Assembly (NCBI RefSeq): GCF_902506435.1
Contig: NZ_LR733215.1
Span: forward strand, 812,355-876,354
Length of the DNA stretch: 64,000 nucleotides
Source of the DNA: Nocardioides sp. AX2bis
GTDB lineage: Bacteria; Actinomycetota; Actinomycetes; Propionibacteriales; Nocardioidaceae
Reading direction: 5' to 3'
In this document: positions 23,721 to 48,194 of the stretch, piece after piece
How the letters are laid out: every line of letters starts with the position of its first letter
How positions within the stretch are numbered: the stretch's first letter is position 1
Program-made: the position numbers and the translations under genes
The notes under the pieces: generated by a model
Database searches by the model: none
What the model saw: the letters and a program-made list of their open reading frames with translations, nothing else
Told to the model about the DNA's origin: nothing

Positions 23721-23766
23721 GTCGTGTGCCTGAGAGCGGTCCGGGGACCGTCCTCAGGCACACGAC
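23721..23766. repeat. 46-bp palindromic element, copy A
   Basis: Architecture: 14-bp outer arm GTCGTGTGCCTGAG, 2-base mismatch, 6-bp inner arm CGGTCC, 2-base loop, then the complements. Both outer (14/14) and inner (6/6) arms are perfect here. It sits 17 bp after the WS/DGAT stop and 14 bp before the convergent acyl-CoA dehydrogenase stop, so it can also serve as a bidirectional terminator. Three further copies of identical length and layout flank the DUF559 gene at 45515-46699. Confidence 0.95.
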
Positions 23767-43304: not shown

Positions 43305-45149
43305 ATGTGCGGGATCGTGGGCTACGTCGGGCCGAAGTCAGCCCAGGAGGTCGTCGTCGAGGGACTGCGCCGCCTGGAGTACCGGGGATACGACTCCGCG
43401 GGGGTGGCGCTCGTCGTGGACGGTGCGCTGGTCGTCGACAAGAAGGCCGGGAAGCTGGCCAACCTGGAGAAGGCGATCGCGGAGACGCCGCTGCCGGCGG
43501 CGACGACCGGCATCGGGCACACCCGGTGGGCCACGCACGGTCCCCCGACCGACGCCAACGCCCACCCGCACCTCGGGGAGTCGCGCCGGGTCGCGCTGGT
43601 GCACAACGGGATCATCGAGAACTTCGACGCGCTGCGCACCCAGCTCGAGGCCGACGGCCACCAGCTAGTCTCTGACACCGACACCGAGATCGTGGCCCAC
43701 CTCGTCGAGCTGCAGGTGCGCTCCGGGGTCGACCTGACCGAGGCGATGCAGCGGGTCTGCCAGGTCCTCGAGGGCGCGTTCACGCTCGTCGCCGTGGACG
43801 CCGAGGACCCCGACCGGGTCGTCGCGGCCCGCCGCAACTCCCCGCTGGTCGTCGGGCTGGGGGAGGGCGAGAACTTCCTCGGCTCCGACGTCGCCGCCTT
43901 CATCGAGCACACCCGCGAGGCCCTCGAGCTCGGCCAGGACACCGTGGTCACCATCACCGCCGCCGGCGTCGAGGTCACCGACTTCCACGGCGTGCCGCAG
44001 GAGGGCGTGCGCTACCACGTCGACTGGGACCTCTCGGCCGCCGAGAAGGACGGCCACGACTGGTTCATGCGCAAGGAGATCTTCGAGCAGCCGCGGGCCG
44101 TCGCGGACTCCCTGCTCGGTCGCCGCACGCGTACCGGAGCCCTGCAGCTGGACGAGATGCGGCTCTCGGACCAGGAGATCCGCGACATCGACAAGATCAT
44201 CATCATCGCGGCCGGCACGTCGTTCTACGCCGGCATGGTGGCCAAGTACGCCATCGAGCACTGGTGCCGCGTCCCGGTCGAGGTCGAGCTGTCCAGCGAG
44301 TTCCGCTACCGCGACCCGATCCTGGACTTCTCGACCCTCGTGGTCGCGATCAGCCAGTCCGGCGAGACCGCGGACACGCTCCAGGCGATCCGGCACGCGC
44401 GCACCCAGCGCTCGAAGGTGCTGGCGATCTGCAACACCAACGGCTCGACGATCCCGCGCGAGTCCGACGCGGTGATCTACACCCACGCCGGCCCCGAGAT
44501 CGGCGTCGCCTCGACCAAGGGGTTCCTGACCCAGCTGGTCGCGACCTACCTGCTCGCGCTCTACATCGCGCAGGTCAAGGGCACCCGGTACGGCGACGAG
44601 ATCGCCGAGGTGATGCACCAGCTCGAGGCGATCCCGGCCCAGATCGAGGAGCTGCTGGGGCGCAGCGAGGAGGTGTACGAGCTGGCCCGCGCGCACGTGA
44701 AGGCCACCTCGGTGCTCTTCCTCGGCCGGCACGCCGGCTACCCCGTGGCGCTCGAGGGGGCGCTGAAGCTCAAGGAGATCGCCTACCTGCACGCCGAGGG
44801 GTTCGCCGCCGGCGAGCTCAAGCACGGTCCGATCGCGCTGATCACCGACGGCCTGCCGGTGCTGTGCGTGGTGCCGCCGCAGGGCCGCGACCAGCTCCAC
44901 TCCAAGATGCTGTCGGGCATCCAGGAGGTCCGGGCCCGCGGCGCCCTGACGATCTGCCTGGCCGAGGAGGGCGACGAGGCGATCCCGCGCTACGCCGACC
45001 ACCTGATCCGCCTGCCCAAGGTGCCGGTGCTGCTCCAGCCGCTGGTGGCCACGGTGCCGCTGCAGCTGTTCGCCTGCGAGCTGGCCACCGGGCTCGGCCA
45101 CGACGTCGACCAGCCGCGCAACCTGGCCAAGTCCGTCACCGTCGAGTGA
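43305..45149 (+). CDS. glmS: Glutamine-fructose-6-phosphate aminotransferase GlmS
   Basis: 614 residues from ATG at 43305. N-terminal glutaminase with nucleophile Cys2 (MCGIVGYVG), [24 protein letters not shown]; then two SIS sugar-isomerase domains with [81 protein letters not shown] and the C-terminal NLAKSVTVE. It makes glucosamine-6-phosphate. The stop overlaps the acpS GTG (GTGA). No glmS ribozyme is expected or seen. Confidence 0.97.
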
Positions 45150-45499
45150 GCGTGCTCGGCGTCGGCATCGACGTCTGCGACATCGCGCGCTTCGGGCTCT
45201 CGCTCGAACGCACCCCCGGGCTGCGCGAGCGGCTGTTCACCCCCGCGGAGGCCGGCCGCTCGCTGGCCTCGCTGGCCGCCCGGTTCGCCGCGAAGGAGGC
45301 CCTGGCCAAGTCGCTGGGCGCCCCCGGCGGCCTGGCCTGGCACGACGCCGAGGTGGTCTCGGAGGACACCGGCCGGCCCCGCCTGGAGATGCGGGGGTCG
45401 GTCCTCGCCCGGGCGGCCGAGCTCGGCGCCACCTCGGTCCACGTCTCGCTCTCCCACGACGCCGGCATCGCCTCGGCCGTGGTGGTGCTGGAGGGCTGA
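45146..45499 (+). CDS. acpS: Holo-ACP synthase AcpS
   Basis: 117 residues from GTG at 45146, overlapping glmS. Phosphopantetheinyl transferase motifs: [18 protein letters not shown] and [13 protein letters not shown] (Mg-binding), then [20 protein letters not shown]. It transfers 4'-phosphopantetheine from CoA to acyl carrier protein. The length is normal. The next conserved gene, nnrE/D, lies 1.27 kb away because of the intervening palindrome-bracketed gene. Confidence 0.95.
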
Positions 45500-45514
45500 C
45501 CCAGGGCCGGGGCA

Positions 45515-45560
45515 GTCGTGTGCCTGAGCACGGTCCCTGGGCCGTTGTCAGGCACACGAC
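45515..45560. repeat. 46-bp palindromic element, copy B
   Basis: Same 14-2-6-2-6-2-14 layout as copy A: outer arms GTCGTGTGCCTGAG and GTCAGGCACACGAC (one mismatch), inner CGGTCC/GGGCCG (one wobble). It starts 16 bp after the acpS stop, and its right arm contains the stop codon of the convergent DUF559 gene (TGA at 45550-45548). Confidence 0.95.
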
Positions 45561-46501
45561 CCTCCCGGCCCGAGGCGCAGCAGGACCCGGAGGTCCCGGA
45601 CCAGCTCCTCCGGCTCGTGCCGCAGCTCGTGGGCGGTGCAGCCGACGACGGTCCGACCCGGCCCGGAGAGTCGTCGGTGGCGCTGCTTGTCGTTGCTCCA
45701 CGACCGGATCTCGGTGTGGAACGCGCCGTCCACCTCGAGCACGACGACGTGGCCGTCGGGCAGGTCCCACTCGGCGTCGGTCCACCGCGCTCGACCGGCA
45801 GGGTCACGGCGCGGCCGCTGCCGGTCCGGGAGCGGGAGCCCGTGGTCGCGGCACAGGTCGACGAGGTCGAGCTCGGCGCGCGAGTGCGACCCGCGGGCGA
45901 CGTCCTCCAGCACGGAGCGGAAGGACGCGGCGCGCCGGAGCGGTCGGAGGACGGGGATCCAGGACTGCAACCGCTCGGCGGTGGTCAGTCGTTGCTGGAC
46001 CACCGCCGCCAGGACGCCGTGGGCGGAGCGCAGGTCCGCGTCGTACGCCGCCCAGAGCAGCACCGCCGGCTCGAGCTGCGCGAGCGGCAGACCGTGCGCG
46101 TGGCGCAGGAGCAGGTCGTGGGGCCGGCGGGTCCGGAAGAACCGGACGCCCGGGACCGGGTCGAAGCTGAGCTCGTCGTCCACCCAGACGGTGAGCGTGT
46201 CGCGTCCCCACCCGGCCAGTCCGTGCGCAGCCGCGGCGGACAGGCTGCCGAGCATGCTGCGCGGGCCGGCGTGCAGGACGGCGAGCCACCGACGCTGCTG
46301 GAGGTCGAGCGGGCCGGTCGTGGTGCTGACGACGCGGGGCGTACGGGCGACCCAGCGGCTGGCGCGCACGGCGGCGTCGACGTGGTCCCAGTCCACCCCG
46401 TGGGCCGTCAGCTGGCGGCGGGCGACCATCCCGGCCTGGTCGGTGATGAGGGCCCGCAGGTCGCGGTGCTGCTCGCCGTGCGGTCGGGGGTCGGGATCCA
46501 C
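45548..46501 (-). CDS. DUF559 nuclease-like protein with AbiEi-type N-terminal domain
   Basis: 317 residues from GTG at 46501 (VDPDPRPHGEQH). N-terminal 60 residues resemble the AbiEi antitoxin winged helix (RALITDQAGMVARRQLTAHGV, AVRASRWVARTPRVV). The C-terminal 100 residues are DUF559, a Vsr-like PD-(D/E)XK fold: SRAELDLVDLCRDHGLPLP, EWDLPDGHVVVLEVDGAFH, NDKQRHRRL and VVGCTAHELRHEPEELVRDL, with the acidic EVDG core. Upstream the frame is open through palindromes D and C, so the start is uncertain. The last codons, ...SCA-stop, are read from palindrome B. It interrupts the conserved acpS-nnrD neighbourhood and is bracketed by the 46-bp palindromes. Function is unproven. Confidence 0.82.
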   Translation of the reverse strand: MDPDPRPHGEQHRDLRALITDQAGMVARRQLTAHGVDWDHVDAAVRASRWVARTPRVVSTTTGPLDLQQRRWLAVLHAGPRSMLGSLSAAAAHGLAGWGRDTLTVWVDDELSFDPVPGVRFFRTRRPHDLLLRHAHGLPLAQLEPAVLLWAAYDADLRSAHGVLAAVVQQRLTTAERLQSWIPVLRPLRRAASFRSVLEDVARGSHSRAELDLVDLCRDHGLPLPDRQRPRRDPAGRARWTDAEWDLPDGHVVVLEVDGAFHTEIRSWSNDKQRHRRLSGPGRTVVGCTAHELRHEPEELVRDLRVLLRLGPGGSCA

Positions 46502-46570
46502 CGGTCCACTGTCGGCGCGCCGTGGTGCGGCCGGCTGGCGAGAGCAGGCGCCCTGGGGACGACGGCACGA

Positions 46571-46616
46571 GTCGTGTGCCTGTGCACGGTCCATGGCCCG
46601 TGCTCGGGCACACGAC
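46571..46616. repeat. 46-bp palindromic element, copy C
   Basis: Outer arms GTCGTGTGCCTGTG and CTCGGGCACACGAC, inner CGGTCC and GGCCCG: same lengths as A, B and D but more mismatches. It lies 70 bp beyond the DUF559 start in the divergent region, where a terminator is not expected. Confidence 0.9.
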
Positions 46617-46653
46617 CGCGGGCGGGGTGGGTGTCCGTCCCCGCTCCCGGGCA

Positions 46654-46699
46654 GTCGTGTGCCCCACGACGGTCCCGGGGCCGGTCTGAGGCACACGAC
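46654..46699. repeat. 46-bp palindromic element, copy D
   Basis: Outer arms GTCGTGTGCCCCAC and CTGAGGCACACGAC, inner CGGTCC and GGGCCG. It is 83 bp from copy C start to start and 68 bp before the nnrE/D ATG. The terminal GTCGTGTGCC / GGCACACGAC ends are invariant among copies. Confidence 0.9.
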
Positions 46700-46766
46700 T
46701 CCTCCGCCCCGCCCCGGCTCGCCCCGGCTCGGCCCGGGCCCGGTCGCGCCGGGCTAGCGTGGCGGG

Positions 46767-48194
46767 ATGAGGCGCGCGCACACGGTGGAGCAGGTCCGGG
46801 CGGCGGAGGGGGCGCTGATAGCACGGCTGTCCCCGGGGGCGCTGATGCAGCGGGCCGCGACCGGGCTGGCGCACGCGGTGCTGGACCTGCTGGCCGGGCC
46901 GGCGGGGGACCAGCCGGCGTACGGGCGTCGCGTGCTGCTGCTCGTCGGCGGCGGCGACAACGGCGGGGACGCCCTGTGGGCGGGGGCGCGGCTGGCGGCG
47001 CGCGGGTGCGCGGTCGAGGCCGTGCTGCTCTCCGACCACGCCCGCGCCGACGGCCTGGCCGCGCTGCGCGCCGCCGGCGGCCGCGTGGTCGCCGCGGGCA
47101 CCGCCCACCGGCCCGACGTCGTCCTCGACGGCATCGTCGGCATCGGCGGTCGGCCCGGGCTGCGGCAGGACGCGGCCGAGGAGCTCGGGCGGTACGCCGG
47201 GGTGCCGGTCGTCGCGGTCGACACCCCGTCCGGCGTGGACGTCGACACCGGCGAGGTCGACGGGTCCCACGTGCGGGCCACGCTGACCGTCACCTTCGGC
47301 ACCCACAAGCCCTGCCACCTGCTCGACCCCGCCGCGCTGGCGTGCGGCCCGGTGCACCTGGTCGACCTCGGCCTCGACCTTCCCGCCCCGGAGCTCGAGG
47401 CGCTGCAGCCCGACGACGTGGCCGCGCTGCTGCCCGTGCCCGGCGCGGCGGACCACAAGTACTCCCGCGGCGTGGTCGGCGTCCGCGCCGGCTCCGCCAC
47501 CTACCCCGGGGCCGGCCTGCTCAGCGTCATGGGCGCCGCGACCGGGCTGGTCGGGATGGTGCGCTACGTCGGTGACGACCTGGTGGGCGACCGGGTCCGC
47601 ACGGCCCACCCCGAGGTGGTCGGCGCCGGCCGGGTCCAGGCGTGGGTGGTCGGCAGCGGCAGCGGCGACGGCTCCGCCGGCACCTTGGCCGAGGCGCTGG
47701 CCGACGACGTGCCGCTGGTCGTCGACGCCGACGCCCTGGTGCACCTCGCCGCGCCGGCCCCCGCCCACGCCGTCCTGACGCCGCACGCCGGCGAGCTGTC
47801 CCGGATGCTCGACGTGGCCCGCGAGGACGTCGAGGCCCGCCCGCTCCACCACGTCCGGGCCGCGGTCGAGCGGTACGGCTGCACCGTGCTGCTCAAGGGC
47901 CGGCACACCCTGGTCGCCGCCCCGGGGCGCCCGGTCCGGGTCACCACCACCGGGACGCCCTGGCTGGCCACGGCCGGCGCCGGCGACGTCCTCGGCGGGC
48001 TCGTCGGGGCCCTGCTCGCCGCGGGCCTGGAGCCGTACGACGCGGCGTCGGCCGGCAGCTGGCTGCACGGGGCCGCGGCCACGACCGCCGCGGCCGGCGG
48101 TCCCCTCACGGCGAGCGCCGTCGCCGGCGCGCTGCCCGGCGTCGTGCGCGACCTGCTCCGCGCCGCTCCGCGGGGTGGGAGGTCCACACCCTGA
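46767..48194 (+). CDS. nnrD: Bifunctional NAD(P)H-hydrate epimerase / ADP-dependent dehydratase (NnrE-NnrD)
   Basis: 475 residues. Residues 1-215 are the YjeF_N epimerase (MRRAHTVEQVRAAEGALIA, GGGDNGGDALWAGARLAARG, VDTPSGVDVDTGEV), and 220-475 the ribokinase-like dehydratase (HKYSRGVVGVRAGSATYPGAG, VVDADAL, VLTPHAGELSRML, LLKGRHTLV, ATAGAGDVLGGLVGAL). Together they repair hydrated NADH/NADPH. This actinobacterial position (between acpS and alr) is typical. The alr gene follows after 23 bp. Confidence 0.95.
   Translation: MRRAHTVEQVRAAEGALIARLSPGALMQRAATGLAHAVLDLLAGPAGDQPAYGRRVLLLVGGGDNGGDALWAGARLAARGCAVEAVLLSDHARADGLAALRAAGGRVVAAGTAHRPDVVLDGIVGIGGRPGLRQDAAEELGRYAGVPVVAVDTPSGVDVDTGEVDGSHVRATLTVTFGTHKPCHLLDPAALACGPVHLVDLGLDLPAPELEALQPDDVAALLPVPGAADHKYSRGVVGVRAGSATYPGAGLLSVMGAATGLVGMVRYVGDDLVGDRVRTAHPEVVGAGRVQAWVVGSGSGDGSAGTLAEALADDVPLVVDADALVHLAAPAPAHAVLTPHAGELSRMLDVAREDVEARPLHHVRAAVERYGCTVLLKGRHTLVAAPGRPVRVTTTGTPWLATAGAGDVLGGLVGALLAAGLEPYDAASAGSWLHGAAATTAAAGGPLTASAVAGALPGVVRDLLRAAPRGGRSTP

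Follow-up and report, generated by a model that had tools for sequence, protein, structure and literature searches.

The window analysed here is a 64,000-nucleotide stretch of DNA from Nocardioides sp. AX2bis, part of a 4.21-Mb Nocardioides genome (G000), in which a gene for an AbiEi/DUF559 protein lies between acpS and nnrD and is bracketed by copies of a 46-bp palindrome. The gene occupies positions 45548..46501 of the minus strand and encodes 317 aa from a GTG start, which is backed by the nearest named protein (87% identity), a Nocardioides aquaticus protein of equal length and similar N-terminus. Palindrome B (45515-45560) begins 15 bp past the acpS stop and contains the stop codon of the nuclease gene, palindromes C (46571-46616) and D (46654-46699) lie upstream of its start, with D ahead of nnrD, and palindrome A (23721-23766), one of the dispersed copies, stands alone between two gene calls in convergent orientation. 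The initial annotation had described the bracketed gene, the stop codon within copy B and the position of copies C and D before the start, and every coordinate was confirmed.

Residues about 10-199 of the protein are predicted by fold and profile match to form an AbiEi-type DNA-binding half (residues 11-180 match the PADLOC AbiEi models with an E of 1.3e-5), and residues about 205-316 are predicted by fold to form a Vsr/EDxHD-type nuclease half. None of the predicted-fold lists contradicts an AbiEi half or a Vsr/EDxHD-like nuclease half. The DUF559 match at residues 253-305 falls under Pfam's cut-off (16.9 versus 20.6 bits); DUF559 alone was found in a Pfam scan of the protein with E up to 1, and PHROGs and NCBIfam gave no match. 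D242, E256, H262 and D271 are invariant in 45 aligned sequences (the window protein and 44 relatives), with equivalents present in 24 diverse family members. These predicted catalytic residues (E-x-D...H...D) are of the EDxHD type. The palindrome arm spells the final codons and stop of the gene (TCG TGT GCC TGA, window 45548-45560), and proteins ending in SCA were seen in several relatives as well.

The full pattern with at most three mismatches recovers the four copies A to D in the window, against 0.00 expected from 100 shuffles. Across the genome, exact 10-base arms occur in 24 copies, all of 46 bp with spacers of 18-34 permitted, and tolerance of up to three mismatches yields 30 copies (reversed control, 0), one of which, at 1440431, is probably a chance match. 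Among 27 copies examined with their flanks, the outward-strand base just beyond the palindrome is a pyrimidine at 54 of 54 ends; all 27 start with GTCG and end with CGAC, both of which are in the search pattern, and GTAG stands at the outer edge of neither end in any of them. By gene calls from a simple codon model made for this analysis, 13 of the 27 are flanked by convergent and 11 by tandem genes, one falls inside an open reading frame call, and the two in divergent position are both those preceding the enzyme gene itself; for 13 copies, a stop codon is no more than 30 bp away. Folded as single-stranded DNA, three of the window copies are far more stable than shuffles (z of -5.5 to -6.9; -2.2 for copy D). 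Rfam gave no match over 45400-46800 with E up to 1.

Matched palindrome pairs across the enzyme family

Bracketing was scored as the sharing of arms between the upstream and the downstream palindrome, with a maximum of 40. Scores of at least 38 were reached by 35 of 47 close homologues (the window included) and by 19 of 24 distant paralogues. The distant DUF559 paralogues, tried as a negative control, were dropped because they are themselves bracketed, with other arms, and other nulls were therefore constructed: none of 300 cross-paired flanks, 188 window pseudo-genes and 284 Markov flanks reached 38 (0 of 772 in total), the highest score among the Markov flanks being 37. At several loci under 38, shorter, longer or damaged palindromes were seen by eye, and at others none was visible.

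Members of the family occur in 86 of the 98 genomes of the genus and in 86 of the 246 surveyed across the phylum. In a set of 65 named loci, 50 score at least 38, including loci from Nocardioides, Marmoricola, Pimelobacter, Pseudactinotalea and Kribbella, and the single Geodermatophilaceae locus scores 32. The null for this set is one of shifted pseudo-genes (1 of 65 at 38 or more); cross-pairing is invalid for it because the same arms recur at different loci (144 of 300 pairs at 38 or more). Of the phylum loci fetched, 6 of 29 score at least 38 and two more score 37, and the nulls gave 0 of 58 at 37 or more. The bracketing rates of genus and phylum thus describe a pairing of enzyme and palindrome that is dense close to the window and patchy at distance.

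The arms are alike within a pair and vary among enzyme clades (GTCGTGTGCC, GTCGAGTGCG, GTCGTGCCCC, GTCGTCCGCC, GACGTCATAC, ACGTCATGGC, GCAGCGGATC and more), and palindrome length is 39-48 bp in the other arm families seen. Arm labels were read by hand before the protein tree was seen. The tree holds 69 of 71 proteins (the fragments L070 and L096 were excluded), and the label count omits four tree rows at which no pair was readable (L019, L087, L088 and L113). On the 65 labelled rows, the 34 arm labels require 33 changes, the minimum possible, compared with 47-52 in 300 shuffles; 10 labels are common to at least two rows and 24 are single, and the test depends on those 10. Support is weak at 18 of the 66 inner branches of the tree.

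Two further palindrome families are dispersed through the window's genome. Arms of GACGTCATNC are found 20 times, a pair of these copies lying next to the paralogue L017, and arms of GCAGCGGATC occur in 16 copies, beside L018 and L020 (controls 0 in both cases); the latter copies show two core types by eye, which resemble those beside L018 and L020. No pair is seen beside one of the genome's own paralogues, L019 (score 34). The GACGTCATNC palindromes (G000:C8) divide into 11 of 46 bp, including the L017 pair, and nine of 48 bp with no known enzyme, the owner of which may be another family member.

Palindrome number, site states and turnover

The number of palindromes follows the presence of the enzyme in the 59 genus genomes probed for both. 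The window's clade, defined as a 16-row branch of the tree, has 16 members from 16 genomes, one apiece. At least five exact GTCGTGTGCC palindromes (counts include the bracketing copies) are found in 8 of 11 genomes with a clade enzyme versus 1 of 48 without (Fisher p 6e-7), and at least one is found in 9 of 11 versus 6 of 48; in G020, one clade enzyme is accompanied by as many as 81 palindromes. In the two exceptional genomes with a clade enzyme (G013 and G037), the arms belonging to that enzyme have themselves changed. The one genome with at least five palindromes but no intact close enzyme, G009, has 10 palindromes and a gene remnant between two palindromes at acpS-nnrD, a decayed unit, while G026, G029, G034, G038 and G047 have 1-4 copies and no enzyme of the window's clade. 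Palindromes with GTCGTGTGCC arms were absent from all 37 genomes probed from the order's other genera. When 98 genomes were scanned with the broad pattern GTCGTNNNNC-N26-GNNNNACGAC, it proved too loose for arm variants; G016, G041, G043 and G050 have 12-22 matches versus 1-4 in the control.

The flanking genes acpS (45146..45499, plus strand, Pfam ACPS, start read from the sequence) and nnrD (46767..48194, plus strand, Pfam YjeF_N and Carb_kinase) define a site that was inspected in 90 genus genomes and that exists in empty, lone-palindrome and filled states. The site is empty in 46 genomes (acpS and nnrD less than 50 bp apart, enzyme absent), filled by the gene in 12 (G013, G102 and G020 were read from the nnrD side alone, and the gap in G119 is 4 kb) and occupied by the decayed unit in G009; the remaining 29 have other sequence or are unreadable. 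A lone palindrome is present in G038 and G110, where the gaps of 74 and 78 bp equal 28 and 32 bp plus 46. Target-site duplications are unreadable at the orthologous empty sites, the flanks of which are too short or diverged, and the lone-copy gaps fit 46 extra bp. The pairs around the 12 genes at this site score at least 38 in eight cases, 36-37 in three and 34 in G026, where a degenerate pair is seen by eye, so that the gene is not found there free of palindromes. In G056, G033 and G024, where acpS and nnrD are separated by 7, -1 and -4 bp, the enzyme of the window's clade lies at another place, and the 71 loci show 42 neighbour combinations, an upper bound since unmatched neighbours were counted as different. 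In G010, the gap (L213) holds an unrelated 53-bp palindrome with its outer 14 pairs all matched, which suggests a recurrent landing site.

The comparative evidence of one site in three states and of many neighbourhoods supports the mobility proposed by the initial annotation for a small nuclease-plus-palindrome cassette. Neither of the outcomes by which that proposal would have failed, a gene at acpS-nnrD free of palindromes or palindromes just as frequent in genomes lacking the gene, was observed. The frame of a single cassette is too narrow, because AbiEi-DUF559 proteins are paired with their own palindromes through much of the family.

Comparison with the nearest relative met, N. aquaticus (G140), shows turnover of the palindromes. 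With at most two mismatches, 13 copies are found in that genome versus 28 in the window's genome. The orthologous intergenic regions of the copies at 2163908, 3248254 and 890961 and of the three-copy cluster at 3231683 have no GTCGTG arms in G140, and copy A is absent from the orthologous convergent intergenic region (L276), its place being taken by a longer palindrome that belongs to a different family (CTGTAACGCTGTGTTACT...AGTAACACAGCGTTACAG). No half-decayed copies were seen at the sites lacking a palindrome in G140. In nine palindromes common to both genomes, differences number 4 of 180 positions in the arms, 567 of 4901 in the flanks and 64 of 234 in the cores (arms versus flanks, p 1e-5; core versus flanks, p 1e-10), with a bias toward conserved arms since partners in G140 were located by arms with at most two mismatches. 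The combination of conserved arms with a core that evolves more rapidly than the DNA around it is the trace that would be expected if the arms were recognised and the centre of the palindrome were broken or converted again and again. A test for compensatory covariation in individual cores was negative, an argument against selection for stable hairpins.

Other arrangements of the palindromes were noted in the window's genome. A 71-bp tandem array of three palindromes is present at L021 (G000:C8:2071657-2071844), where G140 shows one, and the clusters at 1710690/1711020 and 3231683/3231861 share flanks and appear to be local duplications. Two degenerate copies (G000:C8:3254739-3254784 and 916266-916311) have an ACGCGC...GCGCGT core, as in copies from G032 and G024, and may be relics from a separate lineage of this palindrome. 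A 2152-bp stretch that carries an amidase gene (Pfam Amidase) is flanked by two same-family palindromes (L031 6963-9206; G000:C8:1881962-1884205). A short direct repeat, identical in both cases, stands ahead of each of the two, and the orthologous site in G140 is without the entire stretch.

Interpretation and comparison with known systems

These observations are probably best explained by a palindrome-gene-palindrome unit in which the protein is predicted to bind the arms and likely cuts there. By way of host repair, the palindromes would thereby turn over and spread, and the gene would move to new places. The AbiEi-type half would bind the arms of its own palindrome, and the Vsr/EDxHD-type half would cut in or beside the variable core, be it in duplex, cruciform or hairpin form. 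After the cut, end-joining or gap repair by the host could copy the palindrome, or the palindrome together with the gene, elsewhere, and homing of the gene into lone palindromes may belong to the same process.

Such homing, taken by itself, is the main rival, though an unlikely one. In that case the palindromes would pre-exist, a lone one would be cut, and gap repair from a palindrome-gene-palindrome donor would insert the gene with a palindrome on each side, so that the gene spreads and the palindromes do not. Homing alone leaves unexplained the tracking of the enzyme by palindrome number, the clade-specific arms and the absence of copies from orthologous sites of the nearest relative; moreover, with one clade member in each of 16 genomes, it is the palindromes and not the gene that are multiplying. 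It is rather improbable that the palindromes are operators through which the AbiEi-type half controls its own gene and others, with the nuclease half serving something else. There is a precedent in AbiEi and Rv2827c, which, according to PMC7319586, bind inverted repeats in their own promoters, and the two copies upstream of the gene are the sole divergent ones among the 27. However, 24 of the 27 copies lie between convergent or tandem gene calls, nearly half sit close to a stop codon, one bracketing copy contains the stop codon of the gene itself, and the gain and loss of copies at orthologous sites resemble those of mobile repeats.

Some other enzyme might spread the palindromes, in which case the AbiEi-DUF559 protein would be carried along as a passenger, serve in defence as a nuclease or keep the palindromes trimmed. 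The AbiEi half is listed in a defence database, no transposition by this protein is known, and the amidase gene is likewise bracketed by two copies, but the arm families fit the protein tree with zero extra changes and most homologues in the genus are bracketed, and a passenger would not keep step across so many arm types; this explanation is very improbable. Ordinary transcription terminators are scarcely credible. Proximity to stop codons and the strong folding of three of the four window copies are what terminators would show, yet shared 10-base arms, a fixed length and enzyme-linked families would be unexpected, and Rfam is blank over the region.

Whether the cut-and-repair unit represents an undescribed class of actinobacterial dispersed palindromes, independent of the repetitive extragenic palindromes (REPs) and their RAYT enzymes, is about an even call. 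In such a class, an AbiEi-Vsr/EDxHD fusion would read the arms of its own palindrome, cut, and spread palindrome and gene by cut-and-repair and not by transposase chemistry, with several pairs per genome that each have private arms or cores. No description of such an enzyme-palindrome system was found in the open PubMed Central (PMC) library, subscription papers and preprints being outside the scope of the search, and none of the open PMC papers containing DUF559 is concerned with palindromes, to judge from titles and the beginnings of abstracts. If this proposal is correct, the REP/RAYT arrangement arose anew with a hydrolytic nuclease, and for short repeats in bacterial genomes such enzyme-palindrome pairing is a general mode of life. 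A common domain of unknown function would gain a function, the 34 arm labels of 65 proteins would form a large natural protein-DNA specificity set from which to decode AbiEi-type recognition, and the system would provide a testable case of palindrome spread without a transposase.

Each half of the protein has known counterparts. The predicted catalytic fold and the E-x-D...H...D residues are shared with EDxHD/Vsr homing endonucleases (e.g., I-Bth0305I), from which the window gene differs in being free-standing, with no intron or intein seen though none was searched for, in having an AbiEi-type half and in having whole palindromes on both sides. The PADLOC match and predicted fold ally the protein with the AbiE type IV toxin-antitoxin systems (AbiEi, Rv2827c), but a C-terminal nuclease domain is added and no AbiEii (DUF1814) toxin gene lies beside the window gene, the neighbours of which are acpS and nnrD. 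Miniature inverted-repeat transposable elements (MITEs) resemble the palindromes as short, non-coding inverted repeats that are presumed to be mobilised in trans; the palindromes here are of 46 bp, and neither Pfam nor the predicted fold makes the linked protein a DDE transposase.

Dispersed palindromes are also known as CGTC-tagged REPs, and ACGTC occurs in the arms of one large group here; in PMC3733652, however, the tag is unpaired, whereas here it lies within the paired arm. The same paper describes the CGTC repeats as apparently lacking a dedicated transposase and names five phyla, actinobacteria not among them; a link between these repeats and the present palindromes is speculation. The closest resemblance is to REP/RAYT systems, in which the RAYT transposases are believed to recognise and spread the REPs. 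According to PMC2817692, RAYT genes have two flanking REPs, co-evolve with these and are linked to REP abundance. The enzyme gene between two copies of a dispersed extragenic palindrome (PMC2817692, PMC3733652), the co-divergence of enzyme and palindrome, the association of enzyme presence with the number of cognate palindromes and the placement of copies mostly between convergent or tandem genes are common to both. The differences are that RAYTs are Y1 tyrosine (HUH) enzymes of the IS200/IS605 type and the window enzyme is of predicted AbiEi plus Vsr/EDxHD type, that the palindrome here has no GTAG tetranucleotide at its foot, and that it measures 46 bp (39-48 bp in other families) compared with 20-40 bp for REPs. 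Because it lacks the GTAG foot and has an unrelated enzyme, the window system is not a member of the REP/RAYT group, the logic of which it follows by means of that enzyme.
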